Of a stretch of DNA of 64,000 nucleotides, positions 2,871-64,000 are shown in pieces. Each line of letters begins with the position of its first letter. Within the stretch, counting starts at the first letter, position 1. The DNA comes from Argopecten irradians (lineage: Eukaryota > Mollusca > Bivalvia > Pectinida > Pectinidae): positions 3,468,001 through 3,532,000 of the forward strand of contig NC_091134.1 in the NCBI RefSeq assembly GCF_041381155.1. The letters are read 5' to 3'. Made by a program: the position numbers and the translations under genes. Under the pieces are notes generated by a model. It did no database searches. It was not told the DNA's origin and was given only the letters and a program-made list of their open reading frames with translations.

Positions 2871-3149
2871 AGCATTACCGTTAGCCCTTTTTCTGATATA
2901 CAGAGAAAATAATTATGACATTATATTTTTAAAACTTTGCAAAAAATTTTGATTCAACCAAAATTAAACTTTGCAGTCGAGTTGGAAAGTGTCCCAAAAC
3001 CTGCTTGTTTTGAAGATATTTTCGCATACATATCAAAAACCTACAATGTTACATAATAGAAAAATCTCCAATTTGATAGAGTTAGTTAATAAATATCTGG
3101 TTTCACTCTTTTGAAATTGTGTATTTGTAGTTTGCAAGGACAGAAAAAA

Positions 3150-3290
3150 GATTAATCACTACCTAGAAAGTAGGTCGGAGGTGATCCACGACAGTCTAAC
3201 CCTCAGCAAACCTTGGGTTGAATCTTCTCCGAGGGTAGAGATTTCTCCATCCTACTCTCAAGGTAGGATAATATCCTATTAATCTCTTGC
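3150..3290. repeat. Short palindromic element
   Basis: AGATTAATCACTACCT followed by GTAGGTCGGAG at the left is mirrored at the right by GAGGGTAGAG, CCTACTCTCAAGGTAGG and ATTAATCTC. The arms are imperfect and about 40-60 bp, separated by a short loop. There is no coding capacity; it is probably a tiny fold-back MITE. Confidence 0.4.
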
Positions 3291-3319
3291 TAACCACTAA
3301 AATGTGGACAGCAGTAGTA

Positions 3320-3990
3320 CATGTACGTGACTATAGCACACGTGCTTCGGCGGGTAACATCTGACAAATATCTGGCCTGTACTATAACATTATCGTTTAG
3401 ATGGAACACCCGCATCTCCAACATCTGCAATAAGGCGAACAACACACATGGATTTCGAAAACAGAACCTAAACATCAATAATCGAAGCATCATGGAAAAT
3501 GTCTACAAATAACAACATATTTGCAGTAGACCAACATTGGAAATGCTAGCACCATACGGAATCTAAACCTTTGACCAACACTGCAACATATACACCGGCT
3601 GGTCCAAAGACGTGCAACGAGATATGTAACAAATTGTTATCATCACACCTCATCTGTCAGCGGTATGTTACAAGACCGTACTGGGTCGGAGACTTTGTAC
3701 TTTACAGGAAAGAAGGAAATATCAAGCCTTAATGGCGGTGATGTACAAAGTGGTAACTGGAAACATAAAGTTAAATAGAGATGACAAATTGAAAACTATT
3801 GATAGACAAACAATATCTTACACATTCCCTAGTGTTGAACGTTTTATGCAAAACAACAACTAGAAAAGAAGCAGTCTACCCGATATTCACCAAACACGCT
3901 GGAAATTTCTATAGATATCGTGTAAGTACAAATTAGATATATCCCGACTGAAAGATGTTGCTATTCAACACTATTCTTGTCGTTCTCCTT
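3320..3990 (+). mobile_element. LINE fragment: 3' end of a non-LTR retrotransposon ORF2
   Basis: Frame-shifting translation gives a typical LINE ORF2 C-terminus: a WNTRISNICNKANNTHGF segment at about 3400-3460, then LVQRRATRYVTNCYHHTSS near 3600-3655, then a LQERRKYQALMAVMYKV segment near 3700-3755. The blocks fall in different frames with a stop near 3570, so the copy is dead. It is 5'-truncated, with no reverse transcriptase palm in view. It lies just upstream of another LINE remnant in the same orientation, but the two have different C-terminal types and are probably separate insertions. Confidence 0.75.
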
Positions 3991-4316
3991 AAAAATTAAT
4001 CAAAATATGCTGATCATTTTTTATATAACTACACTAGGATCAAAATAAATACTTTATTTCATTTTACGCAACATTGGTGTTTACCGCAAGTCGTATTTGA
4101 TTTTTGGGCGATACGAATATTTATAAAAAAAAGTTTGATATATAATTTATTTATGTATAGATGTTATGACGTATTGTGCACTTTTAAAAATCACGTACTA
4201 AATCATATCACTTAGGGATAAATAATTACATACCTGCTGCCGAAATCAAACATGTGGATGCGACTAAATGATTATCTATAATATTAATGTACTTTACATT
4301 TTCTCCCCACTCTTAA

Positions 4317-6310: not shown

Positions 6311-9120
6311 AGTAAATATAACTTTAACTTGTTGTTTTTTATAGCTAGCCTAGCCCGTAGCGTCGACGAACTTACTCCGTGATGACGCGTCAGTCGTCCA
6401 TCAATAATTCCTTTAAAACACTACTAATGACGAAATGATTAGTAAAAACAAAACTTTGGCAGTAACTCCGATGTCTAGATGGCCGCAGAGACATGTTGGC
6501 AATAGGGGATAAAGCACAAATTGAAATAATGTATTCAATTGACTTTAAGCAAAGGTCATTTCTGTGGAAAGTGAACAGATTCGTCATGTCTTCCCAAATA
6601 TTGTTCTTCTCGGTAACTACATCCGTGTCTATTAGTACATGCATTTCTCCCATTTCCCTTCAATTAATATGTTCAAACTTTTCTAGAAAATTCCTGTTGT
6701 TTTTTTTTGTCCTGACTTAGAATACAAAGTTTTTATATAACCATAATTGTGATCTGATGAGAGTGAAGTAGTGCTCGTTTCTTCGGTAGTTTTTTCAGTG
6801 AGGTACATACAGGTACCAAACACGAAAAGACAAAACATTCAATCAACAGTTTGAAATAATATGTAATAAAATAATAAAGAACAAAAAGTAAAGGTATTTG
6901 AGGTACGTGGAGTTTATTCAACCATTCTATCCCAGTAGGGCTAGTAATTACCTGTTCAACTATTAATGATATTGCATAAGCTTGAGCTTCTTCAAAAATA
7001 CTAAACTGCAATTTTTACTTCATTTTCTCTAACAGTAGCAACAGACAATCCAAAAAGAAAATTAGCTTATCTAAACACAGAAATGTTGAAAATTAGATAA
7101 AACAAATAGAAATAAAAGGATACAAAACAAACTAAAATTTACAAACGACCTATACATTAAATGAACAAAATGTTATTCTATATGTAAATCAACAAAACAA
7201 GCTTATAAACTTGGCCATAAATGTATAAGATACTCAAGAAATTATCATTTTATTCGCCCATAGGGATGTATGTGAGGTATAAGCATGCGCGTGAGAATGG
7301 CTGGAATACTGAACTCGGTAAACAATGCAAAAATAAATTAATATAAAAATAAATATACATCGTCATAAAAATGATGTTACATCACGGTAATGTACCACCA
7401 TTATATATCACAAATAAAAATGCAATATCACAATATAAACAAAGCAGTGGAATTAGATAGAAATATTTCAGTGGGAATCATTATTTTGTTGTCCTAATCA
7501 TCATTTTCAAGTGGAGGAATGAAATCACAAATAACCCAGTTTCTTCCATAATAGACATCTGCCCGATGTGCTTGACAAATACATTTTGCTCAAAGCATTT
7601 CCTCGTATTCAAATAGAATGAAGGACTTCATTGGTAACGTCAATTTGGGACACATACAAAATATTTGCCCACGAAAGTTAAGAACTCTACAGCATATTAG
7701 ACACTTAGCAGACGACTTCTTTATACTAAATAACTACATGTTGTGAAGGCAAGACTACTTGTGCATTACATAAACCCCAGAACGGTGTGTCTCATTAGTA
7801 GCTATAGAAAAATAATAGACTTATTGTTTTTATAAATACTTATCAGACACTTGTATGGAGACAAAAATAAGTATTATCAACAAATGTGAAATGCTACATA
7901 CGACTAGATCTATCTTGGATTAAATATCCCAATTTGAAAAAAAATGAAAAAAAAAATAAATTTATAATGCTATCTATTAAGCAATATAGGTAGCCATGAC
8001 GTTGATGCACGCCAGCCATTTACATAAAATCTGTCAGGCTTTCAACTATAGTTCGACGACGTCATAGATATTCACGTAACCATACCACAATTCAAGACAA
8101 AGTTGTACTAAATAGCGTATTATACGATATCGACATTAATGCATAACAATGAAACATTCACCAATCAAAAACACTTTACGAACCAACGGAATTACGAACG
8201 ATTTTAAAATTGGCAAATGAAATATAGTCATACTGTCTCATCCATGTCCAATATATTTTGATGTTGTATCTTAAATATTTGCAAGACTAGTTAAAATGAT
8301 CACAATCGCGTTACTTTTCATTTATTTGATTTGGAAATCATAAAACAAACTAGTTGAATAAAATTTAAAATCATGATCTTACTACAATGTTAAGTATGAT
8401 GGTTAAATTACATTGTGTCCTATACAACAATGTAGTTTATTCGAACTTCAACATGGTAAAGTATAAAATTCTAAGAATCTAAAAACTAAAACCTCGGTAG
8501 ACAGTATCTTTTTCCTGTAATAATAATTTTCACTTTCTCGGTAGATAAAAATATTTTGCATAAACTGAACTTGTTTTGATTATTTTTCATGAAAAAAACC
8601 TTTTGTCATTTCAAAAAAAATAAATTCACTTAGATCGTGTAATTTTATATGATAGTATCGTGAACCTTTATATTATTTCTGTCAACATTACTTAATTTTC
8701 TTAGATTTTTCTTTTTTAACTAAGGATATTCTTCATTTACAATTTATCCTTTAAATAAAACGTTATGAATTATTCTCGTCATTTTTGATAGTCTCTAGAT
8801 AAATTTGCTCACTTAGCTTTTGAATGTTTTAGATGAAAATATGTACCGTGATAAAGGATGAATCGTATGCATTGAACTGTATCGTATCGCCAGGTATGAT
8901 GTTTTACATCGTTTGCTATCTAAATTCATGTTGCTGCCTAAAAGTGACCGGTATTAAAATGACATGTTTACAATGGCCAATTAGTCTCTATGGTGCCCAC
9001 GCTAGAATGTCACGACAGAATAAATTCGCCCTTGTGTCAGAGGAGTTCAATATAGACAGATTGTTTCTATCACAAATTAGCTTGTTGTAATTTGTCCACA
9101 GTGTATGCCTCATTCTAACG
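6311..9120. other. Intergenic stretch, no gene seen
   Basis: AT-rich sequence with only short open frames and no domain, tRNA or repeat that I recognise. A reverse-strand AATAAA (plus-strand TTTATT at 9124-9129) is a possible polyadenylation signal for the minus-strand TRIM gene, which would give a 3' UTR of about 0.9 kb. Confidence 0.45.
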
Positions 9121-22300: not shown

Positions 22301-25300
22301 AAGGGGTAGGGTAGCATATGTTGTTATTCTGAGAAAAAGTGTAAGTCTTATTGATCAAAACTGGTATATTTTTAAAGAAGACTACTAGAAAATAAATTAT
22401 ACAAACATCTATACATATCAAACACCTCATTCGGAAATTATGGCTTTAATCTATTGTGTATATGGTCAAAACGGCAAAATTCCCATAAAATCCAATATTT
22501 TGTCAATTAGGTATCTTTGAGTGACAAAGCTCAAAAAAGAGCACACGGACATATGTTTTTTCTTCTATTTTCTTTTATGGCATGAACTCCTATTTCCAAA
22601 AATCTATATGAGAAAAAAAGTTTAATACAAGAAAATTTTGACTTCTCAGAGGAGTACATCCTTAACTATAGTAACACTCGTTTATTGGAAGTGAACAATT
22701 AGGTCATGTAGAGTGCCACTCCCAAAGTTCTACACTGTGCGGAGGGGGATATCAAAGCAATACAATTAGCGTACTGTAGTGATATTAGACAAAATAAATC
22801 CCTGGAATAAAATGAAGACATGAAATGTTCATCCAACGATTTTATACTGGACGTACTACGCTGTTTTGTGTCATATTTGTTTACAATGTCGCATTTTCGC
22901 TCATAACAAAATTATTTTTGCATCATATAAACGGTCTAATAGAACAGGCAAATTAATTTGTTTAAATAGAAATGTGTACACTGTATACATAACGGACTTT
23001 AATAAAATATCATTATAAATTCAACATTTTACCATTAAAGAAGGTTAAAAAAAGTCCAACATAATATGAAATCCACTTACGGAGTCTGTATTCCAACCTC
23101 TACTGCTCCTTCACTAATATTTCACATCTACGTGTTCTCGATAAAGGCGACCTCTTGTGAACTTAACAAGAAGATGCGCGCGCAATAATTCATACTCGAC
23201 TGGTCCTAACACAGAATATATTATCATTCGGGAACACAGAAACAAGTTTATGTGAGCATGAAATTAACTGTGTTAAGTTTAAAGGACATTAGATAAGTTT
23301 GATTGAAAATTTCTGATAGAAAATTTATATTTAGCTGTAATGTTGGCGCTTTCACAATAGAGAAGCACTCGTAGGTATATATTTTTTTTGTATACATGCA
23401 ATCTTTCTTTTATTTAATTTTGGATTACGTTAAACATAGCTACTAAGAAACAAGAAGACATCAATGTGAAATTGTCGTTATATTTCTAAGCATCAGTCAC
23501 ATTGTCACGTTGTCACGCTGTACCAAAGGGAATCAACAATACAACCACTATTTAATGCTATACTGTAATTTGAACTCAGAATGATGGCTTCAGTTACATG
23601 TACGATTTTATTGGCGAAGAAACTCAACAAAATGGCTTCAGTTCATATTATCATACTGCCAAAGAAACTAAAAAGTACGATTTTATTGGCGAAGAAACTC
23701 AACAAAATGGCTTCAGTTCATATTATCATACTGCCAAAGAAACTAAAAAGATGGTGTGAGTCAGATGATGCTGTCAAAGAAACATAGTTCAGATGTCAAA
23801 GAAACCCATCAAGATGGCTTCAAGTCAGATTGTATTGCCAAAGAAACCCATCAAAATGGTTTCAGTTCAGATGCCAAAGAAACCCAGCAAGATGGCTTCA
23901 GTTCAGATGCAAAAGAAACCCAGCAAGATGGCTTCAGTTCAGATGCAAAAGAAACCCAGCGAAGAAGGCGTTGTTCGTGATTTTCGGGAAGCTACTGATC
24001 TCGGAGTGATACAAATGACATAACTGAACACTTAAAACACTCAATCCATGGTTTATATGTAAATACAAATTCAATGTCTGTGGTTTTGAATATTGGGGTT
24101 TTATTTTTTTTATACCATCAAAATGAACAAAACTTTTAATTTTCATCGCGGAGTGGTTTCATTGTTTTTATGTGCACAGGCTCGTCCAGCGTACCTAAGA
24201 ATGCTGTTTCACAGCATCAAAAATAGCTATAAGATTATGTTATGCTGTCTGACCCAATATGATGTCACTGACGAACAAATCATCATATCTTCAAAACTCT
24301 CCAACGCTACTAATACTCTGCGGTCAGAGCCATGACCAAAAAGATGAAACGTTTGCCAGACAGCTACAAAATCATCATTATCTATAATATTACCAGCAAT
24401 GGTTGCCATAGTGGAAACACCCGTATAGATTTATGATTATCACCTGCCCATGTAATTCACCTGTCTCACATGTCTAAGAAAATATGACTTACCTACAGCG
24501 TTCCCACACACGGAGTACTCTAACACAGTTCTAGTAACGTTTTGTAAGGTATATTCAGCCGCCGTTAAAACGACGATAAACCCGCGTTTGAACTTGTAAA
24601 CGTGTTATTCCTTATCAATTTAACGATAAACTTATAAATTGCTCCATTCATTTTTATCACAACTTCACCGATAATGGTGCTCAGTTTTACAATAAGTTAT
24701 ATATCCTGTGTGTATCAAGCCCTACCTGTGCCCGCGCTCTACTGATGACGGGCCGTAAAGGTATTATGGAGTAGGGGTATAAGTATGTACACGTTCGGCA
24801 GGTAAATATTGACAGGTACGCCAAATGATACAGCTTTAAAGCAGGTTGTTAATAGCACCCGATACAATATGATTTTAATAACACGGATATCTATCAGTTC
24901 TTTAATACATAAAATGCAAATTTAAATTTAAAAAAGAAGCTATATTGTTATGCTAGTTTCTTTCTTGATAACATTGATAGGTAATCAAGTGAAGATACAG
25001 GTGTAAAATTTCAGGTGTAAAATTACAGGTGAGTTTACCTATGTCAAATGATTTAGTCGATATCATGGTCTGACGTCTAATCATCATAATTTATTTCCAC
25101 ATGTATGTACAGATTTAATATATATCAATACTTCTGCACAAATACGATTGTGACGTAATATTTTTTACAATTGCCAATGAGCAAAGAGACCTGAAAATCG
25201 CTTTCAGATTTTGCATATGTAGGCCTCATTTAGTCTGTTAAGAATAATTTCATGTGATTCGGAGAACTAGATTAAAATCGAATAAAAAGTTACATTTTCT

Positions 25301-42608: not shown

Positions 42609-45600
42609 TCATAATTCAAAATATAAGGACGCTAATTCCTCACGGATTTCAGTAAAGCTCATATTCTCCCCACCACTTATAAGAGCCTTTAACCTTATCC
42701 ACTGATTAGCCAAGTTCTGTGGCGTCCCACCATTCGGAATTCTCTCCAACAACTCTTCCCAGTTTATCTCACTTTCCAGCAGAACATCTAAATTATAGAT
42801 TTCTTTCACTAATGTTACTTTGTCTACTTGAATCTTTTGCATGCCGAGTGTACCCTGTGCCAGTAATGGTCGAAGTCTGTAGACCCAGAGGTTCCGACAC
42901 TGTTTTGCACTGCGATGGTTCATCTTACTAGCAATTTTTGTCCACGGTAATTGAGTATGTGGTAGACTAAGCAGGTCATCCGTCTGCATCACTTCTGATA
43001 TAGCAGCTATTAAGTCGTCTACCTGTAAAACACAAATCATTAATTAGACATCTAATTGACAAGTCATCAAACAATTCATGGTGATCTGAGTAGAAGCATA
43101 TCTATAGAACTTAACTAAACCAAACTGTGTTCCTTGGTCAACATCTGATCTAGATCTTTCTACATACGATCATGAAATCATGGGAGTTCAGAAGATAGAC
43201 ACATTTACTATCATGATGTATGTCAGAAACTGTGAACCTTGGTCAACATCTGATCTAGATCTTTCCACATATGATCATGAAATCATGGGAGCTCAGAAGA
43301 TAGACCCACTCACTATCATGATGTATGTCAATTGAAATTACAGAAACTTTATCACAAAAACTACTGAAGTAGGAATTCTCTTTCGATTAAGTACAATAGT
43401 TTTATAGACACAACCTTATTGGATTTAAATAGTTGGATTAAAGTTTTTTTTTCTATCAACATTTAAGGATGTGCCGGGTTTAGGAGGTAAGGAGGTTGAG
43501 GAAAGCTGAAGTACCCAAGAAATACCATTGACCAGTGGTCAGTACCTGGCAACTGTCTAATAAAGGTTTCAAACTTCAAACTTATACACCAAGATATGGA
43601 GAGTAAGGAGAAGTGTCAATTTAGGTCCTCTTGCAGCCATGACAAATAAGTTTATTCTTTGTTCAGGGATATCCGGGGTTTAAGGTCATGTTGTAGTCCC
43701 TTGTTAGTTATGGGGGGTTAAACTGAAGGATCAATTTTCTGTTTTGTCTAGTTTTGCTGGAATAAAATGAATTTGAAAATAAACTTGACTTGGCCTACAA
43801 GTTTTTAATATTAAAGTTCCGAAATGACTCTAGCAAGTACCAAAACTACTTTGTACTAAAACATGGACATGACCTAAACTGTAACTATTAGGGTATTGTA
43901 ACATGACCTACTGTAACTAAGTGTATTGTGACATGACCTACTGTGTAACTAAGTGAATTGTAACATGACCTACTGTAACTAAGTGTATTGTAACATGACC
44001 TATACTGTAACTAAGTGTATTGTAACATGACCTACTGTAACTAAGTGTATTGTGACATGACCTACTGTAACTAAGTGTATTGTAACATGACCTACTGTAA
44101 CTAAGTGTATTGTAACATGACTTACTCTAACTAAGTGTATTGTGACACGACCTACTCTAAGTGTATTATGACATGACCTATACTGTAACTAAGTGTATTG
44201 CGACATGACCTACTGTAACTAAGTGTATTGTGACATGACCGACTGTAACTTAGTGTATTGTAACATGACCTGCTGTAACTATGTGTATTGTAACTTGACA
44301 TATACTGTAACTTAGTGTATTGTAACATGACCTACTGTAATTACTAAGTGTATTGTGACATGACCTACTGTAACTAAGTGTATTGTAACATGATCTACTG
44401 AAACTAAGTGTATTGTAACATGACTTACTGTAATTAAGTGTATTGTAACATGACCTATACTGTAACTAAGTGTATTGTAACATGAACTACTTCAACTAAG
44501 TGTATTGTAACATGAACTACTGTAATTAAGTGTATTGTAACATGACCTATACTGTAACTAAGTGTATTGTAACATGAACTACTTCAACTAAGTGTATTGT
44601 AACATGAACTACTGTACCCAAGTGTATTGTGACATGACCTACTGTACCCAAGTGTATTGTGACATGACCTACTGTAACTAAGTGTATTGTAACATGACCT
44701 ACTGTAACTAAGTGTATTGTAACATGACCTATACTGTAACTAAGTGTATTGTAACATGACCTACTGTAACTAAGTGTATTTTAACATGACCTATACTGTA
44801 ACTAAGTGTATTGTGACATGACCTACTATAACTAAGTGTATTTTAACATGACCTATACAGTAACTTAGTGTATTGTAACATGACCTACTGTAACTAAGTG
44901 TATTATGACATGACCTACTGTAACTAAGTGTATTGTAACATGACCTACTGTAACTTAAGTGTATTGTAACATGACCTTTACTGTAACTAAGTGTATTGTA
45001 ACATGACCTACTGTAACTAAGTGTATTTTAACATGACCTATACTGTAACTAAGTGTATTTTAACATGACCTATACTGTAACTAAGTGTATTGTGACATGA
45101 CCTACTATAACTAAGTGTATTTTAACATGACCTACTGTAACTAAGTGTATTGTGACACGACCTACTCTAACTAAGTGTATTGTGACATGACCTACTGTGT
45201 AACTAAGTGTATTGTGACATGACCTACTGTAACTAAGTGTATTGTGACATGACCTACTGTAACTAAGTGTATTATGACACGACCTACTCTAACTAAGTGT
45301 ATTGTGACATGACCTACTGTGTAACTAAGTGTATTGTGACATGACCTACTGTAACTAAGTGTATTATGACATGACCTACTGTAACTAAGTGTATTGTGAT
45401 ATGACCTATACTGTAACTAATTAAGTGTATTGTTACGTGACCTATACTGTAACTAAGTGTATCATGACATGACCTACTCTAACTAAGTGTATTGTGACAT
45501 GACCTACTCTAACTAAGTGTATTGTGACATGACCTACTCTAACTAAGTGTATTGTGACATGACCTACTGTGTAACTAAGTGTATTGTGACATGACCTGCT

Positions 45601-48600
45601 GTAACTATGTGTATTGTAACTTGACATATACTGTAACTTAGTGTATTGTAACATGAACTTCTGCAACTAAGTGTATTGTAACATGACCTACTGTAATTAC
45701 TAAGTGTATTGTGACATGACCTACTGTAACTATGTGTATTGTAACTTGACATATACTGTAACTTAGTGTATTGTAACATGAACTACTGCAACTAAGTGTA
45801 TTGTAACATGACCTACTGTAATTACTAAGTGTATTGTGACATGACCTACTGTAACTAAGTGTATTCTAACATGAACTACTTCAACTAAGTGTATTGTAAC
45901 GTGAACTACTGTAATTAAGTGTATTGTAACATGACCTATACTGTAACTAAGTGTATTGTGACATGACCTATACTGTAACTAAGTGTATTGTGACATGACC
46001 TATACTGTAACTAAGTGTATTGTGACATGACCTATACTGTAACTAAGTGTATTGTGACATGACCTACTCTAACTAAGTGTATTGTGATATGACCTATACT
46101 GTAACTAAGTGTATTGTGACATGATCTACTGTAGCTAAGTGTATCGTGACATGACCTACTGTAACTAAGTGTATTGTAACATGACCTACTGTAATTACTA
46201 AGTGTATTGTGACATGACCTACTGTAACTAAGTGTATTGTGATATGACCTATACTGTAACTTAGTGTATTGTGACATGATCTACTGTAACTAAGTGTATT
46301 GTGACATGATCTACTGTAACTTAGTGTATTGTGACATGATCTACTGTAGCTAAGTGTATCGTGACATGACCTATACTGTAACTAAGTGTATTGTGACATG
46401 ACCTACTGTAACTAAGTGTATTGTGACATGACCTACTGTAACTAAGTGTATTGTGACATGACCTACTGTAACTAAGTGTATTGTGACATGACCTACTGTA
46501 ACTAAGTGTATTGTGACATGACCTACTGTAACTAAGTGTATTGTGACATGACCTACTGTAACTAAGTGTATTGTGACATGACCTACTAACTGTAACTAAG
46601 TGTATTGTGACATGACCTACTGTAACTAAGTGTATTGTGACATGACCTACTGTAACTAAGTGTATTGTGACATGACCTACTGTAACTAAGTGTATTGTGA
46701 CATGACTACTACTGTACATACTGTAACTAAGTGTATTGTGACATGACCTACTGTAACTAAGTGTATTGTGACATGACCTACTGTAACTAAGTGTATTGTG
46801 ACATGACCTACTGTAACTAAGTGTATTGTGACATGACCTACTGTAACTAAGTGTATTGTAACATGACCTACTGTAACTAAGTGTATTGTAACATGACCTA
46901 TACTGTAACTAAGTGTATTGTAACATGACCTATACTGTAACTAAGTGTATTGTAACATGACCTACTGTAACTAAGTGTATTGTAACATGACCTACTGTAA
47001 CTAAGTGTATTGTAACATGACCTATACTGTAACTAAGTGTATTGTAACATGATCTACTGTAACTAAGTGTATTGTGACATGACCTACTGTAACTAAGTGT
47101 ATTGTAACATGATCTACTGTAACTAAGTGTATTGTGACATGACTTACTGTAACTAAGTGTATTGTGACATGACCTACTGTTACTAAGTGTATTGTGACAT
47201 GACCTACTGTAACTAAGTGTATTGTGACATGACCTACTGTAACTAAGTGTATTGTGACATGACCTATACTGTAACTAAGTGTATTGTAACATGACCTACT
47301 GTAACTAAGTGTATTGTGACATGACCTACTGTAACTAAGTGTATTGTGACATGACCTACTGTAACTAAGTGTATTGTGACATGACCTACTGTAACTAAGT
47401 GTATTGTGACATGACCTATACTGTAACTAAGTGTATTGTGACATGACCTACTGTAACTAAGTGTATTGTGACATGACCTATACTGTAACTAAGTGTATTG
47501 TGACATGACCTACTGTAACTAAGTGTATTGTGACATGACCTACTGTAACTAAGTGTATTGTGACATGACCTATACTGTAACTAAGTGTATTGTGACATGA
47601 CCTATACTGTAACTAAGTGTATTGTGACATGACCTACTGTAACTAAGTGTATTGTGACATGACCTATACTGTAACTAAGTGTATTGTGACATGACCTACT
47701 GTAACTAAGTGTATTGTGACATGACCTACTGTAACTAAGTGTATTGTGACATGACCTACTGTAACTAAGTGTATTGTGACATGACCTATACTGTAACTAA
47801 GTGTATTGTGACATGACCTATACTGTAACTAAGTGTATTGTGACATGACCTATACTGTAACTAAGTGTATTGTGACATGACCTATACTGTAACTAAGTGT
47901 ATTGTGACATGACCTATACTGTAACTAAGTGTATTGTGACATGACCTACTGTAACTAAGTGTATTGTGACATGACCTATACTGTAACTAAGTGTATTGTG
48001 ACATGACCTACTGTAACTAAGTGTATTGTGACATGACCTATACTGTAACTAAGTGTATTGTGACATGACCTATACTGTAACTAAGTGTATTGTGACATGA
48101 CCTATACTGTAACTAAGTGTATTGTGACATGACCTATACTGTAACTAAGTGTATTGTGACATGACCTATACTGTAACTAAGTGTATTGTGACATGACCTA
48201 TACTGTAACTAAGTGTATTGTGACATGACCTATACTGTAACTAAGTGTATTGTGACATGACCTATACTGTAACTAAGTGTATTGTGACATGACCTATACT
48301 GTAACTAAGTGTATTGTGACATGACCTATACTGTAACTAAGTGTATTGTGACATGACCTATACTGTAACTAAGTGTATTGTGACATGACCTATACTGTAA
48401 CTAAGTGTATTGTGACATGACCTATACTGTAACTAAGTGTATTGTGACATGACCTATACTGTAACTAAGTGTATTGTGACATGACCTATACTGTAACTAA
48501 GTGTATTGTGACATGACCTATACTGTAACTAAGTGTATTGTGACATGACCTATACTGTAACTAAGTGTATTGTGACATGACCTATACTGTAACTAAGTGT

Positions 48601-51600
48601 ATTGTGACATGACCTATACTGTAACTAAGTGTATTGTGACATGACCTATACTGTAACTAAGTGTATTGTGACATGACCTACTGTAACTAAGTGTATCGTG
48701 ACATGACCTACTGTAACTAAGTGTATTGTAACATGACCTACTCTAACTTAGTGTATTGTGACATGACCTACTGTAACTAAGTGTATCGTGACATGACCTA
48801 TACTGTAACTATGTGTATTGTGACATGACCTATACTGTAACTAAGTGTATTGTGACATGACCTATACTGTAACTAAGTGTATTGTGACATGACCTATACT
48901 GTAACTAAGTGTATTGTGACATGACCTACTGTAACTAAGTGTATCGTGACATGACCTATACTGTAACTAAGTGTATTGTGACATGACCTATACTGTAACT
49001 AAGTGTATTGTGACATGACCTACTGTAACTAAGTGTATTGTGACATGACCTATACTGTAACTAAGTGTATTGTGACATGACCTACTGTAACTAAGTGTAT
49101 TGTGACATGACCTATACTGTAACTAAGTGTATTGTGACATGACCTAATTTTCATTTATACCTCCTTTTCTGTCCATGTTCCTCTCTTCCGATTTTCATCT
49201 TTTATGATTTGATAATGGTCTAGCACACTATTTCTTGACCGATTCATATGAAAACCAATAATTGTCCACTGGTTTCCATGCTTTTCATGCTGCTCAAGTA
49301 GGGTCTTTTCTTCTTCAGGTGTAAAGGGACCCACTTTCCATGCAGGCAGAATTTTTCTGGCACGGTCCATTACACTTTCAGGTAATCTAAAATTAAGTAA
49401 AGAAACAAGCAAGATTGTTGTTATATTCAGCCAATAAAAATCGCTCCAGCCGGTCATATTATTCTAGTGTCATATGCAAAAATATTACACAGGCCAAATC
49501 ATTGGATACATATATATGTACATACCTTCTTAAATTACCAGCAAGTTTGACATAAAAGTCGCTGGTTTTTCGGAATTGCCTCACTCTTATTCTCTCTTCT
49601 GTTGAACTTGCTAAAAACTGCTCAAACAATAACTGTAAAAGAAAATCGTTGTCCATTTCCAATCCATATTCAGCCTTGATGGCTTCAAAATTATCCAACA
49701 AAATCTCATCTTCCTCTTGGATCCATCTTCCCACACGGAGTTGTATCCCCATTTCCTGGTACACTTTGCTCGATTTTCCATTTGAAACTTTCCCATTATG
49801 TATGATAGCGGCCTCATCATCAGTTAAAAGTAAAGTGGAAAGTATATCACTGGACAGATCCGACTGTCGCTTCTTCTTTGAATTTCGAAATGAAGGTTGT
49901 TTTGTGATGGAATCTGGGTCCAGCACAGAGTCCAAAGATGTTTGTTTTGTTACTAAATCTGGAACTGAAGAAGTGTTCTGATTTTCACCACCATCCATTG
50001 CATCATCAGAACAGGTTTCGTCTCGACATGATGTTAGATTGTCTTGATTTTCTGAGTTCAGACTTTCAGAAGGATGGAAGTTATCAGACAAGGAGTGGAA
50101 AATTCCTGAAAATAATTAAAGATCGTAATTAGTTTATAAAAGTTCGTGGTCAAGTCTTTTAATACCAGTTTAAGGTAGGTCCATACTTTTGAAAATCGCG
50201 CCAATTTATATGACGCTATACCGGAAGTTGCGGGGGTTGTTTTGAATTCCAGAATGGTTTCCGATAACCCACGACATCACACTTGGACATTTTTTCAATG
50301 GGTGAAAATTGTCTACATATAATATTGAATGTTTAAAATCATTAAATAAATCAAATAAAAGCAGTGAAGTGAAAACTGTATGCTATCTCTGTGGTTTTTG
50401 CGGTTGATGTCGTAAATGGGAATGGATTTTTAAACACCGGAAGTGGCGTTCGTCGCTATAAATCATAAGAGGGGACCCGGCCGGACCGAAATTCCGGAAT
50501 TCTAAAAAAATCGCATACGGATTTCCTTTAAACACACAATTTGGAGAAAATCATAAAAACAAACAGACATAAACCAGATATAATATCACAAAAACGTATG
50601 AACTGATGTGGAATGTTTTTTTGCGGCATGATTTTCAAAAAATAGTCAAATATAACCCATCTTAGCACTGGATGAAATGGGGGTAGGGTTGCGAGTTACA
50701 AACTTCAAGCTTACAAAATTGTGAAATTTTGATCGAGGACCCCGTGTTTTTATATGATATTTGAAAAATATATTACCTTGGGCATATCATATACAAATAT
50801 TGTGAAATTGACATGGGTTTTCATTTCCTTTTTGGTCTATTCATTGATTTTTTACGGGCGAAAATATGGCAAAACATGATAATTACGTAGAGAAAGGGTC
50901 CTGGGAAATAACAAAAATTAGTTAGCATTTGTAAAAATAAAATAGTTTTGTATATTGTTCTATCGTAAGAAATTTAGGACAAATCAAAGTACTGAAAGTA
51001 CTAAATGGCTCGGTCTCGATGATAGGAGAATATATTTCTAAGGTCAATACTACTGTAGTTGTGTACAATAAGAAATAAATTTGGCTGGTGTTCCTTCCAG
51101 TTTGGACTTTTGAGGATTCCTTGGACACCAAGGTGTAAAATAAGAGACACATACTAAAATCTTGGAAGCCCATTCTAACATTTCCTATGATGTTATATGT
51201 CAAATGATTTTATAACACCTTTAAGCATTTTCCTTGTTAATTTGATGTTAATGAAAATATTCATTCTTAATGACTATATATAGCTATTGTCATCAAGTTC
51301 CTGGGACCACAGTATCAGTTAACAAGTATTGTTTTGCAGCAGAGAAAGACAAGAGGCATACTTTTCTATGCCAAAATGTCTTAAATATAGAATATGTCTG
51401 TCCTCTAGAAGACTTATCAATATCATCATGTGATTTTTGAATAAATTGGTCAATTGGTCTACTTTTAACAAGTTTTGTAATTATTCTTTTGTAAAACAGC
51501 AAGTTGATTGATATACATTGTATCCGAACTTCAATTCAAACCGGATAACTTGTTAGCTCACCATAGACCATGAAATTGTTTGTACACTTTCTTAACTTCA

Positions 51601-54600: not shown

Positions 54601-57600
54601 TTCGTCGATCTAGTAGTCCAAAAATATCAATTCGAGTTATATGAACATTCCATATATGATTTATGTCATTCGGCCAAATATTTACTTCGTATTACCTAGT
54701 TTAATGAATATACTGTATGTATATGATCAGAACGGCAAGCTCCTATGCTGAAAATACCTAAAATGTTTTAAAAGTATGGTTTAGTGGTAATCTCTGAACG
54801 TGCTTTAGTATATAGATATAATCTGATATTTATGCATGTGCTTATGAAATTATCGATAATGATGGATGTGATAAATATTCATACCTTATTAACTGCCGTT
54901 AGTTTTAAGATAACGCCACCTTGGACATTTACAAAATATTCACCGTCTGTCACATGCTATTTTATCAGTAGTCCAAGTTTGTCCAAAATTTTGTTAGAGT
55001 TGTCTTTCTTCCATTGTAGTTTTACGTCCATGTCAACCTGAACACAGCCGTGATAAATGCATCTCCATTTCGCCATGAAATGTATTTGCTCCGAGACAAA
55101 TTTGATTCGAATTACAAAATTCATTATGGTATAAATTTTGATGTTCGAGGTGAAATATCGATTTCATTTTTTTCCGTTGCGGGTTAACTGTCACTAATAG
55201 GGAGTAAACGTCTGGGGGGAACCAGCTTCGGAGCGAAGCATTTTTGGGACGAAACGTCGTCATTCATTGTAAACACCATTTTGGGGACGAAAAGTCTAGA
55301 TACTTTGTAAACAATTCAGGTGAAAATTTTCAAACAGAAGATCTTTTGGATAGTGTGTATAGTAAGGATATGAAAGCCGTAATATACTATTCCTATTTCA
55401 ACGTTACAGATATGCTTATTTCAGTAACTTTCATAATCAAATTTTGCTATTTAAAATTCCCGGTAAAATCAAAGTTGTTGAATACACTGCCGCTAGGAGC
55501 GCTAGTATCTGCGAGCAATTTCTAAGCCAATCATATTGAGGAAATTGACTGTAAGAAAATTTTGCAACCACGATCACAATGGCGAGGTGACCCTCGCCAA
55601 AAATCAACAGGATCGAGACTAAATTCACCCTAATATTACAGAAAACATGATTTTACGAATTTTTCTATTTTCAGTCAGCAAATTTGCATGGATGGTATAT
55701 TTCAAGCTCAAATATCTCAAAAAGTAGTTCGAGAACACCCATTTATCTTTACAGATTTGAAATCTACATGAAAAATGCAAGAAAATAAGACCTGTTAGAA
55801 AAAAATGACATGGGTTTTCCCAAAAGTATGGAGCTACCTTAATATTCAGAGAAATTGATAAATGAATATAAGATTGAGATTCCATTTGTAAAATCAAATG
55901 AAATTTCTGACTTTTTTTAAAAAAAATGTGATTTTCAAGATGGTGACTGAAACAAACATCAACAGTTTACAATTTAACACATGTACAAAAATCGAATCAT
56001 TTCAATTATCAATTTGTAAATATATACAAGCAAAAAAATAATAATTATAAAAAGATACATTCATGCCATTCAATAAAAATGCAGCAAACAAGGAAAGAAT
56101 GAGGGCCGGGAGATAACTCCAACTTATGTACTTACCATTTGAAGATCCAATCATGTTTTCACCATCCCCACCAGTATCTTCATTAGAATGCTGTTTGCGT
56201 TTTTTGGATTTCTTGTGTTTTTTCCTGTGTTCATCTAAACTCTCCATATTGGGTGTTTCAGCTTCTTCATTAGAATGTTTTTTATGTTTTTTCGATTTCC
56301 TGTGTTCATCTAAACTCTCCATATTAGATGTTTCAGCTTCTTCATAGATTTTGTCAGCTGTGTTCATCTAAACTCTCCATATTATGAATGTTTTTTATGT
56401 TTTTTCGATTTCTGTGTTCATCTAAACTTCCATATTGTGTTTCAGTTCTTCATTAGAATGTTTTTTGTTTCCTGTGTTATCTAAACTCTCCATATTGGGT
56501 GATTCAGCTTCTTCATTAGAATTTCTTCTATGTTTTTTTGATTTTTTAGTTTTTTTCGTGAGTTCATCAACACTATCCTCGACATAAGATATTTCATTTT
56601 CTTCATCTGAATGTCTTTTCCTCTTTTTTGACTTTTTGTGCTTTTTCTTATGCTCATTGGCTGTATCAGATAAATCCAAAGTTTCATCTAAATGTTGTTT
56701 ATGTTTTTTAGATTTCTTGTGTTTTTTCCTATGCTCATCTGCACTGTTGATATCACATAATGAATCATCATTCTCATCTGAATGTCTTTTCAACTTTTTA
56801 GATTTTTTATGTTTTTTATTTGACTTAATTTTGTCTTCTGCACTGTCCATATCTGGTAAGCAGACATCATCATTTGAAAGCAAGTGGCGTTTTTCCTTTT
56901 TCTTTTTTGATGACTTCATCTGAAACACAGAAATATGTAATTAAAACATTAAAACCTTCCAATAATTAATTGAACATTTAGAAATTTTTAAAGTCTTCAT
57001 TGTCTAATATTTATAACTATAAGTAAAGTGCAAGTGGAATGAAAGAACAACAAGATAGGGGTTCGAACCCAGGAATTCTGAATTCAACTAACTGAATGCT
57101 GAACCAAGGACGTATATGAGAAGGATAAGTCACACTGAGTTTTAGGCAAAGACAGCGCAGGCGCTTTTGTGTTTGTGCACTGACCGTGACGTTGGGCGAC
57201 GACTGATTTCCTTTGATATCCGCCGCCGCAGCCTTTGATGTAGCATGGGGGTACGAGGGTTACCGTCTTACTTTCTGAAGCGTGCTGCCATTACATGAGC
57301 GGTCGTATTTTTTTAACGATAGTTTAAGACATTTCTTCTCAATCTTCCGTCTTTTAAGCAAGTTATAAATGTTGTGAAATTTAATTTACTTTACATTGGT
57401 GTTTCGTTTGACTCGATAAGACAAGTATTTGTTGAGAAAAACGGTTTTTATTCCCGGTTCATAAGCGTCTCGCGTGGTGTTTAGTAGTGTAAAGATACAG
57501 ACACGAATCCTTCTCACTTATAAATCCTTGGCTGAACCATTGATTATTTACCTGGTCATTGATCATGATGATGACAGACTGGTTCAGAAACATTACTGCA

Positions 57601-59048
57601 ACAACTTTTTCTCAAGATCTCAAGCTAATTGATTTTAATATGTACACTAGAACACTATACTACTATACCCTAAAAGAAGCCCAAATAGTGCCTCATTATT
57701 GTATTTCACTGGTTTGTTTCAACTTTGTTTCGAAATGCCTGATCTTATAATTTCTCGTTCATTACATGTATTTATAATGAAAATACATGAACACTGACTA
57801 GATGCCTTGTTGCAGTTATAGGCTGAAGAACAATAACTATGGTGTAACCAATGCATTTAGTCATTATTGCGACAGTAATGTCAAATAGGTCTAATAATGA
57901 AATGAAAACCAATCTAAAGCATGTGTCAAGCTGACAATGCTGTCTCTAACAATTTCAGCGACAAGGAACTCATAGTAAGAATGACTATTCACAAAGCATT
58001 GTTATCTTACAAGCATTATTTTTCACATGGGCATGTAAACACAACTTTTGCAGATCAGGTATGAATATGCGTATTTTCAAAACGCCATTAAATTTGAATG
58101 TAAAGGCCTACAGTAGGCCTAGCCAGAGCTCATAAATGTGACGGAAATCAAAAGTTAACATAAGCTGCATAAACCCATGACAGGGAAACGTAAACAGAAC
58201 TCATAAAAATTGGGAATATGCTTCTCCAGAAAATGGTTACCTTAAATGTATGATACAAGTCACAGTAATGAACACAATCTTCTATTTCTCTTGGCACATG
58301 TACACATGGCGCGCACGCACCTGTTCGGCTGAAGGAGAATCTAGAGAGATTCCGATAAAGCACACGAGTGGTATCCGAGTATTAATTCTCGCGAGAACTT
58401 GTTGCTACAGGCATGGCGGATTGTATACAAATGGAGTCCTAACTCGTTACCCATCAGACACATGAAAGTTAGATAACGTTACAACATGTAAGTTACAGTA
58501 CGTAAAAATTGTCTATAACGTGCGTGACAAGCACAACCGATCCTGTATCGGTTTTGTAACAAACCAGTGCACGTTTACGTTGCGAGAAATAAGGGATGCG
58601 TGTAAAACCTAATATGTTAACTTATAGATTCTGAGTCTGGATCGAGTACACGGGAAACCATGTTCTTATGATGACCATTGACGGTTATAAGAACTATGCG
58701 GATATTTTTGTAGCAGGAGAGGAAATAATATAGCTGTCAGACTGGTATTCGAACCAGGGGTCTCCGAACACTAGCCGAATGATCTGATGACTGAGATAGC
58801 CCGATCAGATACTTGAGATCTGGCCCGGACACCTGTAGACTTAAGCGATGACATATCTCTGATCGACGGACGGAAGATTTCTGACAGATGGTCATCGTCA
58901 GAGATACGAATCTGTCCCATTGACTAGTGTTGCAAAACATCCTGCAGTGAAAACGTTACAATTCATGAGTGTCAAGTAAATTTATAATTAAATTCAACAG
59001 TATCAAACATTTTAAACATAAAATGGTTATTTATTTACTCACCTCCAT
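42609..59048 (-). CDS. TTF1: Transcription termination factor 1 (TTF1/Reb1-type Myb protein)
   Basis: Binds rDNA terminators in the nucleolus to stop RNA polymerase I and block replication forks (family knowledge). Exons in transcript order: 59048-59043 (ATG GAG), 56919-56136, 50105-49526, 49386-49161 and 43022-42609 (TGA). Phases match and the sum is 2010 nt, about 669 residues against about 900 in mammals. Exon 2 encodes a lysine-rich N-terminus with repeated KKHKKSKKRKRHSDEE-like blocks, typical nucleolar-type sequence. Myb-like repeats follow at about 473-518 (FTPEEEKTLLEQHEKHGNQW), 527-580 (LPWTKIASKMNHRSAKQCRN) and 598-648 (VTLVKEIYNL, INWEELL), ending in a TTF1-like SFTEIREELASLYFE. 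One part of exon 2 (about 56368-56480) is locally out of frame with a stop, though the flanking frame is unchanged; it may be sequence error or a real lesion. Confidence 0.85.
43122..43331. repeat. 105-bp tandem duplication in TTF1 last intron
   Basis: CCTTGGTCAACATCTGATCT begins at 43132 and again at 43237, and both copies continue through GATCATGAAATCATGGGAG and ACTATCATGATGTATGTCA, with few mismatches. The duplication lies about 100 bp from the splice acceptor of the last exon. Confidence 0.9.
43340..43865 (-). other. Unique intron sequence between last TTF1 exon and minisatellite
   Basis: No exon, repeat or RNA was recognised in this part of the last intron. Confidence 0.4.
43866..49146. 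repeat. 5.3-kb minisatellite, 30/32-bp unit, about 170 copies
   Basis: The unit is CTACTGTAACTAAGTGTATT plus GTGACATGAC (30 bp), with a 32-bp version having TATACTG for TACTG. Left copies are mixed and diverged (GTAACATGAC, TTCAACT, ACTGCAACT types). From about 48027 to 48668 some twenty 32-bp copies run nearly without mismatch. The array fills most of the last TTF1 intron and ends 14 nt from the splice donor of exon 4 (49161). Some frames stay open because 30 is a multiple of three, but they are not genes. Confidence 0.95.
51948..52355. mobile_element. MITE with TTAAAGGCCCA inverted ends
   Basis: The left end TTAAAGGCCCAATACCTTTC is mirrored at the right: GGTAGTGGGCCTTTAA, which in reverse reads TTAAAGGCCCACTACCTTTT. 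It is about 408 bp and has a CpG-rich centre (CCGCCGTCGTCC, CCGCGCGG). There is no coding capacity. A partial inverted copy of its middle lies at 53545-53650. Confidence 0.75.
53089..53169 (+). mobile_element. tRNA-derived SINE, internally deleted copy
   Basis: It starts TGTAGCATGATCAGACTGGG, has an A-box-like TAGCTTAGTCGG, and then jumps to the 3' tail ACTACATTTTCTTCTCTCCTGTTACA (read as two parts). The B box is missing, so it has lost its middle. It lies 80 bp upstream of a full copy in the same orientation. Confidence 0.65.
53248..53377 (+). mobile_element. tRNA-derived SINE, full-length copy
   Basis: The head resembles a tRNA, with A box TAGTTCAGTCGGTAGAGCA and B box GGATCGAATCCC, and the tail is CTCCTCTCCTGTTACA. 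The ends TGTAGCGG and CCGCTACA around the head can pair. The acceptor and T stems are mismatched, so it is not a functional tRNA gene. Related copies lie at 53089-53169 and, on the minus strand, at 58709-58832. Confidence 0.75.
53545..53650 (-). mobile_element. Partial inverted copy of the TTAAAGGCCCA MITE
   Basis: GGGGAAAACATAAGACGACC and TTAAATTGTCGAAGGTGATG match, in reverse complement, the centre of the MITE at 51948-52355, with scattered changes. Neither inverted end is present. Confidence 0.6.
57106..57530. mobile_element. Small inverted-repeat element with 8-bp target duplication
   Basis: The inverted ends read AAGGACGTATATGAGAAGGA at the left and, in reverse complement, CAAGGATTTATAAGTGAGAA at the right. 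GCTGAACC flanks it on both sides (57098-57105 and 57531-57538), an exact 8-bp duplication as made by hAT transposases. It is about 425 bp and non-coding, and sits in TTF1 intron 1. It has a CG-rich centre (CGCCGCCGCAGCC). Confidence 0.65.
58709..58832 (-). mobile_element. tRNA-derived SINE, minus-strand copy
   Basis: Read on the minus strand it has GGGCTATCTCAGTCATCAGA (A-box region), GGTTCGAATACC (B box), and the tail TTTCCTCTCCTGCTACA, matching the SINE at 53248-53377. It lies about 210 bp downstream of the TTF1 start exon, in intron 1. Confidence 0.7.
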
Positions 59049-59999
59049 GTCTAAATTATGTTTGTAAGCACATTTGAATGGCTCACACCTCCGACACGGC
59101 TCACTTGGCTGCCATGATGCTTCTCATTAGTAAGCCTTGCGCTCCAAATATGGCAACTCTACTATCAGGTTATGATTATTTGTCCTACTGCAGACTTAGA
59201 CATTATGACAGATAGATGTCTGGTGTAGGGCCACTAAGATATCAAAAGCTGTAATTTGAAGACACCTCTTGGTATCAGGCCAGTTCCTCTCCGATTCAGA
59301 CTGCTAAGAAAACGTTTAAGTCAACTCAAGTTATCTTTATTTAGAGTCAGTAAGTTTGTAACAATATATTGCAACACAATCCTTTAAATATGCTCCACTG
59401 CCAAGAGAGCATAAATGATAAAATCATTTGAATAATAATTGGTGTTTAATCGTGTATATATATGTCTAATTAAATAAAAGAAATAATATAAAATAATTTA
59501 TTTTGCATTTGGTGTATGCACATCCAGTACTTCATTCCATATAAGATATAAGTACCACAATTTTTTTTCAAGATGCAATTGATTAAGTTTAATATTTTTA
59601 ACTTGAAGTAAAACTATAGAAGCTCAAACTTTTCAGTGGTGGAAATAGTGTAAATTAAGTAACTTTTGTAACTGAAGAAAAATACTAAATCACAGCAATT
59701 TAATTATAATACACTTTAGAATTAAGTGACTTGTGGTACCAAATTATTAATAAAAATTGACAATATTGATATTGAGGTTAGATGTTGGCACAAATATTAG
59801 GTGATTTCACAGTATCAAAGACGATTATATTGCTATTTGTACATGGAAGATTTACAGTTTGTACCATTCCATTCTGAAATCAGATTTTTAAAGTCTCTAA
59901 AACTCTTTGCTGATCTGATACAATCAGGCAAAGCATTCAAACATTTTTATTCCATGTTTACACATTGTTTGCCTTGCCAGCTAAAAGGAACGTAAAAAG
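59049..59999. promoter_or_regulatory. Divergent upstream region shared by TTF1 and the CFAP74-like gene
   Basis: The start codons of the two genes point away from each other, 951 bp apart. No clear TATA box was seen on the TTF1 side. On the plus side the start codon follows a good acceptor (TTTGCCTTGCCAG at 59980), so a non-coding first exon should lie further upstream. A truncated MITE occupies 59383-59695, so the gap was enlarged by an insertion. Confidence 0.45.
59383..59695 (+). mobile_element. MITE, AAAGATGCTCCACC family, copy 3, right end lost
   Basis: It starts CTTTAAATATGCTCCACTGC and follows copy 1 through ATTGGTGTTTAATCGTGTAT and GAAGCTCAAACTTTTCAGTG to ACTGAAGAAAAATACTAAAT, then stops before the right inverted end. 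Confidence 0.75.
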
Positions 60000-62900
60000 A
60001 TGGAGGACCAAACTTATGGCGAGATGTACGGGGGAGAGGAATATACTGGAGTAATGGCAGGCGATGACTTTGATGACAACGGTATAATTGACTGTGACGA
60101 CGGCGACGACGACGATGGAATGTTAGACCTTGGATCAGAGGAAGAGGAGTCTGTTATTGTGTAAGTTTATCACAGGGTTTTGTTACATTGAAAAAAAAAT
60201 CTTTAATTTGTATGTTTATTTCATAAAGTTAAGTAATGAAATAAGCTGTTGTCTTTAAAAATGTAAACAATTTTCAATTTCTAAAGGTTAATACAAAGCA
60301 TAGTGATGCTGTTGTAATAAGTAACTTAACCTGTAAGCATTGTATATTGAATTTGTTCTCAATTGATTTTTTTTTATAACTCATACAAATTACGTCATTA
60401 ATGTGCTGCACTATGAAAAACAATGAATTTGAGTCCCCTAGGAATAAGCCCCCAACAACAAACAGCTAAACATCAGATTATATGTTTATAAGAGTCCAAT
60501 CCTTGTCTTTTTACACATTGTTATTGATTAGACAGCTTCTAAGAAACTAGGATTTTTCTGTTTTAATACAATTTTAAAAGGAAATTTACCTTGTGAGAGT
60601 GATGATGTGTTGTTTTTCCTTTTGTAGCGAGCCCACTGTGTCAGTGCCTGAGGTGGAGACGATATCTAAACAGGAACAGTTACGTATGATTCACTTGAGG
60701 AGTCATCTGAATCAGCTGACAGAAACTGTGAAACACCACCGCTACCTAACAGAGAAAACCAGGTATGTAAACCAAGCATCTTAGCTTGATCACAATGGTA
60801 GTGACTTCATTTTTATAAAGGTCTGTTTTTGTACTCATTCTATTTTGTTTGGTTATCTTTGAATATTACTTTGAATAACAAGTCTTTTGAATTCCTTTAT
60901 TGATAAAGCAAAGTGACCATGATAAACTTATCAAAGAAATAAAAATATTTCAAATGGACAAATAAAATGTTTCCTTTCATGTGTACAAACACACAAATTT
61001 CTTTTGGCTGAAAGGCTTGAAAAAAATGTAAAAAAGTTGTAATTAATTATGCATGAAAATTCAGGGTTATATAAATGTGTTTTTGTAACCAATTTGTTTA
61101 AAAAGTTTTTTGTTTTTGTTTTCATGTTTTCTTTTCATTGCTTTTTGATTGATTAGAGAGGAGCAGAAACAGTGTCGTAATAAGATAGAGACGTTAGAGA
61201 CCGAGAGAGACCAAGTGTTTAAGGAAATACAGGGAGCCGAGTCAGACAACAACACGTACGTATAGCAGAGCTGTTCCTTAGTGTTAACAATAGGACAACA
61301 ACACGTATGTATAACAGAGCTGTTCCTTAGTGTTAACAATAGGACAACAACACGTACGTATAGCAGTAGCTGTTCAACAACACGTACGTATAGCAGAGCT
61401 GTTCCTTAGTGTTAACAATAGGACAACAACACGTACGTATAGCAGAGCTGTTCCTTAGTGTTAACAATAGGACAACAACACGTACGTATAGCAGAGCTGT
61501 TCCTTAGTGTTAACAATAGGACAACAACACGTACGTATAACAGAGCTGTTCTTTAGTGTTAACAATAGGACAACAACACGTACGTATAGCAGAGCTGTTC
61601 CTTAATTAGTGTTATCATTACGACAACAACATGTACGTATAACAGAGCTGTTCCTTAGTGTTAACAATAGGACAACAACACGTACGTATAGCAGAGCTGT
61701 TCTTAGTGTTAACAATAGGACAACAACACGTACGTATAACAGAGCTGTTCCTTAGTGTTAACAATAGGACAACAACACGTACGTATAGCAGAGCTGTTCC
61801 TTAGTGTTAACAATAGGACAACAACACGTACGTATAACAGAGCTGTTCCTTAGTGTTAACAATAGGACAACAACACGTACGTATAGCAGAGCTGTTCCTT
61901 AGTGTTAACAATAGGACAACAACACGTACGTATAGCAGAGCTGTTCCTTAGTGTTAACAATAGGACAACAACACGTACGTATAGCAGAGCTGTTCCTTAG
62001 TGTTAACAATAGGACAACAACACGTACGTATAGCAGAGCTGTTCCTTAATTAGTGTTATCATTACGACAACAACATGTACGTATAACAGAGCTGTTCCTT
62101 AGTGTTAACAATAGGACAACAACACGTACGTATAGCAGAGCTGTTCCTTAGTGTTAACAAAAGGACAACAACACGTACGTATCGCAGAGCTGTTCCTTAG
62201 TGTTAACAATAGGACAACAACACGTACGTATAGCAGAGCTGTTCCTTAGTGTTAACAATAGGACAACAACACGTACGTATAAAAGAGCTGTTCCTTAGTG
62301 TTAATAATAGGACAACAACACGTACGTATAACAGAGCTGTTCCTTAGTGTTAACAATAGGACAACAACACGTACGTATAACAGAGCTGTTCTTTAGTGTT
62401 AACAATAGGACAACAACACGTACGTATAGCAGAGCTGTTCCTTAGGGTTAACAATAGGACAACAACACGTACGTATAGCAGAGCTGTTCCTTAGTGTTAA
62501 CAATAGGACAACAACACGTACGTATAACAGAGCTGTTCCTTAGGGTTAACAATAGGACAACAACACGTACGTATAGCAGAGCTGTTCCTTAGTGTTAACA
62601 ATAGGACAACAACACGTACGTATAACAGAGCTGTTCTTTAGTGTTAACAATTAGGACAACAACACGTACGTATAGCAGAGCTGTTCCTTAGTGTTAACAA
62701 TAGGACAACAACACGTACGTATAACAGAGCTATTCCTTAGTATTAACAAATAGGACAACAACACGTACGTATAACAGATCTGTTTCTTTAGTGTTAACAA
62801 TAGGACAACAAGGCGTACGTATAGCAGAGCTGTTCCTTAGTGTTAACAATAGGACAACAACACGTACGTATAACAGAGCTGTTCTTTAGTGTTAACAATA

Positions 62901-64000
62901 GGACAACAACACATACGTATAGCAGAGCTGTTCCTTAATTAGTGTTATCATTACGACAACAACATGTACGTATAACAGAGCTATTCCTTAGTGTTAACAA
63001 TAGGACAACAACACGTACGTATAGCAGAGCTGTTCCTTAGTGTTAACAAAAAGGACAACAACACGTATATATCGCAGAGCTGTTCCTTAGTGTTAACAAT
63101 AGGACAACAGCACGTACGTATAGCAGAGCTGTTCCTTAGTGTTAACAAATAGGACAACAACACGTACGTATAGCAGAGCTGTTCCTTAGTGTTAACAATA
63201 GGACAACAACACGTACGTATAACAGAGCTGTTCTTTAGTGTTAACAATAGGACAACAACACGTACGTATAGCAGAGCTGTTCCTTAGTGTTAACAATAGG
63301 ACAACAACACGTACGTATAACAGAGCTGTTCTTTAGTAGTGTTAACAATAGGACAACAACACGTACGTATAGCAGAGCTGTTCCTTAGTGTTAACAATAG
63401 GACAACAACACGTACGTATAGCAGAGCTGTTCCTTAGTGTTAACAATAGGACAACAACACGTACGTATAGCAGAGCTGTTCCTTAGTGTTAACAATAGGA
63501 CAACAACACGTACGTATAGCAGAGCTGTTCCTTAGTGTTAACAATAGGACAACAACACGTACGTATAGCAGAGCTGTTCCTTAGTGTTAACAATAGGACA
63601 ACAACACGTACGTATAGCAGAGCTGTTTCTTAATTAGTGTTATCATTACGACAACAACATGTACGTATAACAGAGCTGTTCCTTAGTGTTAACAATAGGA
63701 CAACAACACGTACGTATAGCAGAGCTGTTCCTTAGTGTTAACAATAGGACAACAACACGTACGTATAGCAGAGCTGTTCCTTAGTGTTAACAATAGGACA
63801 ACAACACGTACGTATAGCAGAGCTGTTCCTTAGTGTTAACAATAGGACAACAACACGTACGTATAGCAGAGGTGTTCCTTAGTGTTAACAATATGTAATT
63901 GATTTACAGTTACATTGCTACATTGATTTCTGGGTTTACACTGTGGTCATATGTAAGCAATATTTTATGGACCATTATAATTACAGTATGTAATAAAATG
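60000..64000 (+). CDS. CFAP74: CFAP74-like ciliary coiled-coil protein, 5' part
   Basis: Three coding exons are visible: 60000-60160 (ATG at 60000), 60628-60762 and 61157-61255, all with GT/AG ends and phase 2 junctions. They give about 131 residues; the gene runs off the window. The N-terminus is very acidic (GDDFDDNGIIDCDDGDDDDG, EEEES). Then comes a helical segment HLRSHLNQL, YLTEKTREEQKQCRNK, EIQGAESDNN. From memory this parallels human CFAP74 (HLRQNL, FTEKMR, CR, EI, AE spacing), a component of the ciliary central-pair apparatus. The match is by eye, so a different coiled-coil protein is possible. The third intron holds a large minisatellite that starts at the splice donor. Confidence 0.6.
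61246..63893 (+). repeat. 2.6-kb minisatellite, about 49-bp unit, about 54 copies, containing the exon-3 splice donor
   Basis: The unit is GACAACAACACGTACGTATA plus GCAGAGCTGTTCC and TTAGTGTTAACAATAG. Its first copy overlaps the end of exon 3: GACAACAACAC is the last 11 nt of the exon and GTACGT the donor. Variants alternate GTATAGCAG and GTATAACAG. A divergent unit with TTAATTAGTGTTATCATTAC occurs at about 61602, 62046, 62936 and 63630, showing higher-order duplication. The left edge is inside the coding exon; the right edge is near 63893. Confidence 0.95.
63894..64000 (+). other. End of window inside the CFAP74-like intron
   Basis: Unique AT-rich sequence resumes after the array. ATTGATTTACAG at 63898-63909 looks like an acceptor, but the following frame has no feature that confirms an exon. 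Confidence 0.3.

Follow-up and report, generated by a model that had tools for sequence, protein, structure and literature searches.

A long minisatellite in the bivalve Argopecten irradians lies across the boundary between exon 3 and intron 3 of a gene that is, on sequence homology, CFAP74. It is very probably a "mirage" minisatellite: a boundary duplication that expanded in the intron, with a first donor that works and copies that are passengers. In the proposed mechanism, about 49 bp across the exon 3/intron 3 boundary would have been duplicated in tandem, and the duplicated unit would then have expanded within intron 3 by slippage or unequal exchange. Only the first donor would be in use, and the 53 downstream copies would be excised with intron 3 as evolutionary passengers. 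The repeat unit spans an exon-intron boundary, its copies carry splice-site dinucleotides, and its length of 49 nt falls inside the range of 10-160 bp reported for mirages (PMC3087553). The array is thus best explained, by analogy, as a large new instance of an already described type: real, well preserved and most likely a passenger.

Array and host gene

The window (the whole 64,000 nt stretch of DNA that was analysed) ends inside the gene, which was therefore read from 40 kb starting at window position 59000. Twelve exons of a predicted structure were joined by hand; the join is open throughout, gives a product of 511 residues, and has exons 1-6 all ending in phase 2. The product matches chain C of 9ijj ("Cilia- and flagella-associated protein 74") at E 1.8e-26, with query 61-379 on chain 58-376, and this homology over the N-terminal part identifies the array-bearing gene as CFAP74. 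Exons 1-3 alone gave no convincing match (best E 0.05 in Pfam and 0.34 in the PDB), and Rfam returned no family at gathering score within 59500-64000.

The array was delimited with TRF and a fuzzy anchor search. The original prediction had its end right and its start (61246) one base off, and the approximately 54 near-copies it described were counted as 54 units in the assembly. Consecutive unit starts are 30-53 nt apart, usually 49; the main TRF row (61375-63893) has a period of 49 with 93% matches, and 61245-61502 is covered by overlapping rows. The consensus unit is GACAACAACACGTACGTATAGCAGAGCTGTTCCTTAGTGTTAACAATAG, which 21 of the 54 units match exactly, and there are 26 distinct unit sequences. 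As predicted, the unit contains the gene's own donor and the final 11 nt of exon 3: unit 1 opens with those exon bases, GACAACAACAC, is identical to the consensus and has a second GT (GTATAG) four bases past the donor. The donor GT is kept in 53 of the 54 units, with exact CACGTACGT in 46. An AG stands immediately 5' of 48 of the 53 later units (as exact TTAACAATAG in 42), so that an 11-nt pseudo-exon, predicted to be possible in every unit, is formally possible but not in all of them. A paired variant occurs four times, in units 8-9, 17-18, 35-36 and 49-50.

Table 1. Features of the CFAP74 locus and its array (window numbering)
Feature	Position	Strand	Remarks
Coding portion of CFAP74 exon 1; donor GTAAGT	60000..60160	+	Open, in phase with exons 2-12
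CFAP74 exon 2	60628..60762	+	Homologous to 9ijj_C
CFAP74 exon 3, end ...GAGTCAGACAACAACAC	61157..61255	+	Ungapped homology through exon 4 join
Minisatellite array, 54 units	61245..63893	+	Consensus 49 nt = 11 nt exon 3 end + 38 nt intron
Unit 1	61245..61293	+	Exon end and presumed working donor CAC/GTACGT, donor G at 61256
Unit 3	61343..61372	+	Cut to 30 nt; no AG immediately 5' of unit 4
Units 8-9	61569..61670	+	Paired variant: 53-nt unit with end TTATCATTAC, then CATGTACGT
Unit 35	62902..62954	+	Sole unit without donor GT (CACATACGT)
Unit 54	63846..63893	+	Final unit, passes into single-copy intron (AACAATATGTAATTG)
CFAP74 intron 3	61256..64000, on to 64084 past window	+	2829 nt total; predicted
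CFAP74 exon 4	64085-64189	+	Just beyond window

Splicing capacity of the copied donors

The original prediction was that the copied donors could be decoys or a means of variable splicing. In that role they might tune or lower full-length CFAP74 by sending part of the transcripts to a common stop. The near-complete retention of the GT and of the AG directly before most units speaks for this, as does the report that splicing can be altered by tandem repeats located at exon-intron boundaries in human genes (PMC2812944). Several lines of evidence speak against it. First, the repeated donor, CACGTACGTAT, is weak: its U1 pairing was -3.4 kcal/mol versus -14.0 for the consensus, it ranks 10th of the 12 identified CFAP74 donors, and 20% of the 168 other intronic GTs outside the array pair with U1 as well or better. 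Second, every later unit donor truncates the protein. When donors 2-54 are joined to exon 4, all 53 reach an identical stop (TAG) after residue 134, because that TAG sits in unit 1's own intronic part; only donor 1 joins exon 4 without a stop, and retention of intron 3 reaches the same stop as the later donors. Inclusion of the 11-nt pseudo-exon, tried with 0-9 consensus copies, leaves the frame open only with 0, 3, 6 or 9, so that one or two copies move the frame into a stop, and a 23-nt version beginning after CTTAG fails for 1-6 copies.

Third, the acceptors that would accompany these donors are mediocre or poor. They were scored against a profile of CFAP74's 11 true acceptors (leave-one-out -0.2 to 11.0, median 3.8), and the scores are rough because the profile is so small. 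On this scale the 48 junction AGs of the array have a median of 0.6, whereas the 108 other intronic AGs have a median of -1.9 and 37% of them reach 0.6. Roughly speaking, then, junction AGs beat the usual intronic AG and fall mostly below true acceptors. The best of them, at 4.3, exceeds the median true acceptor and is a point in favor of decoys; the 42 CTTAG sites are worse, with a median of -6.1. Fourth, the donor positions show no visible conservation. The count was restricted to units whose length is exactly 49 nt, which left 41 and dropped 13 of the 54, including the one without GT. The nine donor positions carry 5 of the 15 derived states, and 98.3% of shuffles gave no more than five; counted by cells, these positions hold 9 of the 37 that differ from the consensus, both counts being of small numbers. 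There is thus no sign of constraint on the copied donors, which are not visibly kept better than the rest of the unit. Given the weak donor, the common stop, the acceptors and the unconserved donor positions, a role in decoying or varying splicing finds little support and is unlikely.

Some of the same evidence counts against the mirage interpretation as well. The presumed working donor is itself weak and would have to win over copies with its own sequence, and the junction AGs lie above the intronic median, the best of them scoring higher than the median true acceptor. The account of the lancelet arrays also notes that the copies in a mirage might act as cryptic sites (PMC3087553).

RNA structure adds little that is specific to the array. 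The core of the donor (ACGTACGT) is palindromic, with a predicted energy of -11.4 kcal/mol for pairing between two copies. Self-quenching by RNA structure was considered as a specific mechanism and dropped, as the folding of the array is ordinary: a six-unit array compared with dinucleotide-shuffled units gave z -0.32, with 39.5% of 200 shuffles as stable or more. The predicted accessibility of donor 1 ranks 1, 4 and 4 of 54 across three folding settings. With shuffled exon flanks it was above the mean of units 5-8 in just 24 of 100 trials, which places any advantage of donor 1 in the exon sequence. Such an advantage is a weak prediction of the folding models.

Another role that would leave the RNA unspliced at these sites is that of an intronic cluster of U1 snRNP sites, for example suppressing premature polyadenylation or holding nascent RNA. 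The same 11-base sequence is present in 46 of the 54 copies and 9 of its 11 positions are able to pair with U1, but the predicted in-register pairing is poor (the -3.4 kcal/mol given above, far from the consensus value) and the donor positions have no protection from change, which makes this function very improbable.

Origin of the repeat and integrity of the locus

At the exon 3/4 join the alignment with 9ijj_C has no gap (query ESDNNTSALYRL, chain KEANNMAAIGRL), implying that the unit 1 donor yields a protein of the expected length there. The Asn-Asn encoded inside unit 1 aligns with the Asn-Asn of CFAP74 in 9ijj_C, and its presence in both suggests that the array is younger than the coding part of its unit. 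Comparison with one homologous protein therefore gives a good indication that the exon sequence preceded the repeats. The reverse history, in which a minisatellite born in the intron spread into the exon and the exon end is repeat-derived, would fit the exact equality of unit 1 and the consensus, but the shared Asn-Asn and the agreement in protein length with this one homolog leave it scarcely plausible.

The edges of the array hint at how the AG before the units arose. The bases directly before the unit are TCA for unit 1, in the exon, and TAG for most later units, and the last unit runs into ...AACAATATGTAATTG, where the matching AG is missing, as it is at the outer left edge. Absence at both outer edges suggests that the duplication joint probably gave rise to the AG, through one added G or a silent TCG->TCA change in the exon. 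Turnover within the array fits the identical units, the truncated unit and the fourfold paired variant. Block duplication inside the array was tried as an account of the unit order and rejected, since the unit-order tests gave no significant signal (P 0.83 and P 0.78).

It is also most unlikely that the array, or its copy number, is a product of assembly. A 10-N gap downstream, accompanied by a near-duplicate of the later CFAP74 part, suggests that assembly of this region may have been difficult. On the other side, the array has unique flanks on both sides, its 26 distinct unit types are scattered along it, and a copy of it was found nowhere else in the assembly. A 30-base pattern that allowed up to three mismatches found at least 53 places in the whole assembly (846 Mb, some stretches of which were masked as N), all in the CFAP74 array and on the + strand only, and its backward control had no matches; a 98-base search found at least 24 matches, all within the array. 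Neither search found the unit elsewhere, and the one assembly searched yielded no further copy of the array or of exons 2-3.

The downstream duplicate is an observation in its own right. Two tandem copies of the later part of CFAP74 lie past the end of the window, at 65787-79713 and 79783-92909 (window numbering), with matching pieces of 87-96% identity and the gap at 79745-79754 between them. This could reflect either a second haplotype left unmerged or a genuine duplication. Downstream of CFAP74, at 94427-97750, another region of tandem repeats covers about 3.3 kb.

Other minisatellites in the genome

Minisatellites are common on C1, the contig that carries the array: a background sample of 20 evenly spaced 10 kb stretches from its first half (200 kb in total) held 9 arrays with a period of 10-100 and at least 5 copies, 5 of them with at least 10 copies. 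If a genome of such size has about 200,000 introns (a round figure), then by rough estimate 49-bp seeds placed at random, as densely as the 5 larger arrays, would give about 250 donor overlaps before selection, so that one donor-spanning array is not surprising. Two sampled arrays have donor-like motifs (2945-4087 of stretch L016 and 7710-7932 of stretch L028); six-frame translations of their flanks, judged by eye, revealed no clear coding frame ending at either.

Within the window, the largest minisatellite is at 43866-49146, with a 30-nt unit and about 170 copies. Between it and the predicted 3' end (49161) of an exon on the minus strand lie 14 bases of intron, and this exon encodes a Myb domain (PF00249, E 4.2e-12) and has the donor GAG/GTATAA; given that short distance, this array too begins at the very start of an intron. 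Short tandem repeats at 23600-23969 and 56269-56524 are overlapped by open frames of 72-84 codons and may therefore encode repetitive protein stretches.

The two largest arrays of the window are thus both at a donor, the CFAP74 array spanning it and the Myb-gene array starting at intron base 15. A general tendency of minisatellites in the Argopecten irradians genome to arise at the 5' ends of introns is a doubtful, minor possibility.

Relation to known boundary repeats

Arrays described under the name "mirage" were found only for lancelets in the literature searched. There they are minisatellite-like duplications of intron-exon boundaries in Adh3, the globins BflGb6 and BflGb9 and troponin C, with similar imperfect repeats in PGBD5; they are reported to be length-unstable and are said to leave regular splicing undisturbed, and their units measure 10-72 bp in Adh3 and 150-160 bp in the globins (PMC3087553, PMC3902484). 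Like the CFAP74 array, these repeats lie across an exon-intron boundary and, as far as the published descriptions go, many have splice signals. The CFAP74 array differs in its gene and its phylum, and in having 54 units where two lancelet haplotypes of BflGb6 are reported with 6 and 3.

In human IFI6 (6-16, G1P3), as in the CFAP74 array, exon-end repeat units supply several splice donors; the IFI6 minisatellite is reportedly the subject of Turri et al., 1995. Two downstream repeat units are described as used donors there, giving rise to three mRNA species (PMC4526556). The later donors of CFAP74, in contrast, are all predicted to bring a stop, and because they would truncate the protein the array is closer to the lancelet mirages than to IFI6.

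Human segmental duplications are reported to contain internal tandem repeats at exon-intron boundaries, averaging four 30-bp units (PMC2812944). The likeness is a minisatellite expansion across such a boundary; the human repeats are described as affecting coding sequence or creating novel introns, whereas the 54 units in CFAP74 are intronic except for the first 11 bases. A tandem duplication with splice signals is also reported for potato RdRp (PMC4974935). No new intron is indicated in CFAP74, in contrast to that case; intron 3 seems instead to be an existing intron that has lengthened. Literature on minisatellites, introns, splice sites and bivalves yielded no such mollusc array in titles and the opening lines of abstracts, and no literature was found joining CFAP74 with bivalves.

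Implications

If the array is what it most probably is, mirage arrays would extend to the conserved cilia gene CFAP74, to a bivalve and to 54 units. Should minisatellites in this genome indeed tend to originate at intron 5' ends, the CFAP74 array would test, in an extreme natural case, how the spliceosome settles on the first of 54 near-equal donors. If the first donor is nearly always used, the array would also be a natural experiment in how one 5' splice site is chosen from among equals, because each later donor would give the same recognisable truncated product.
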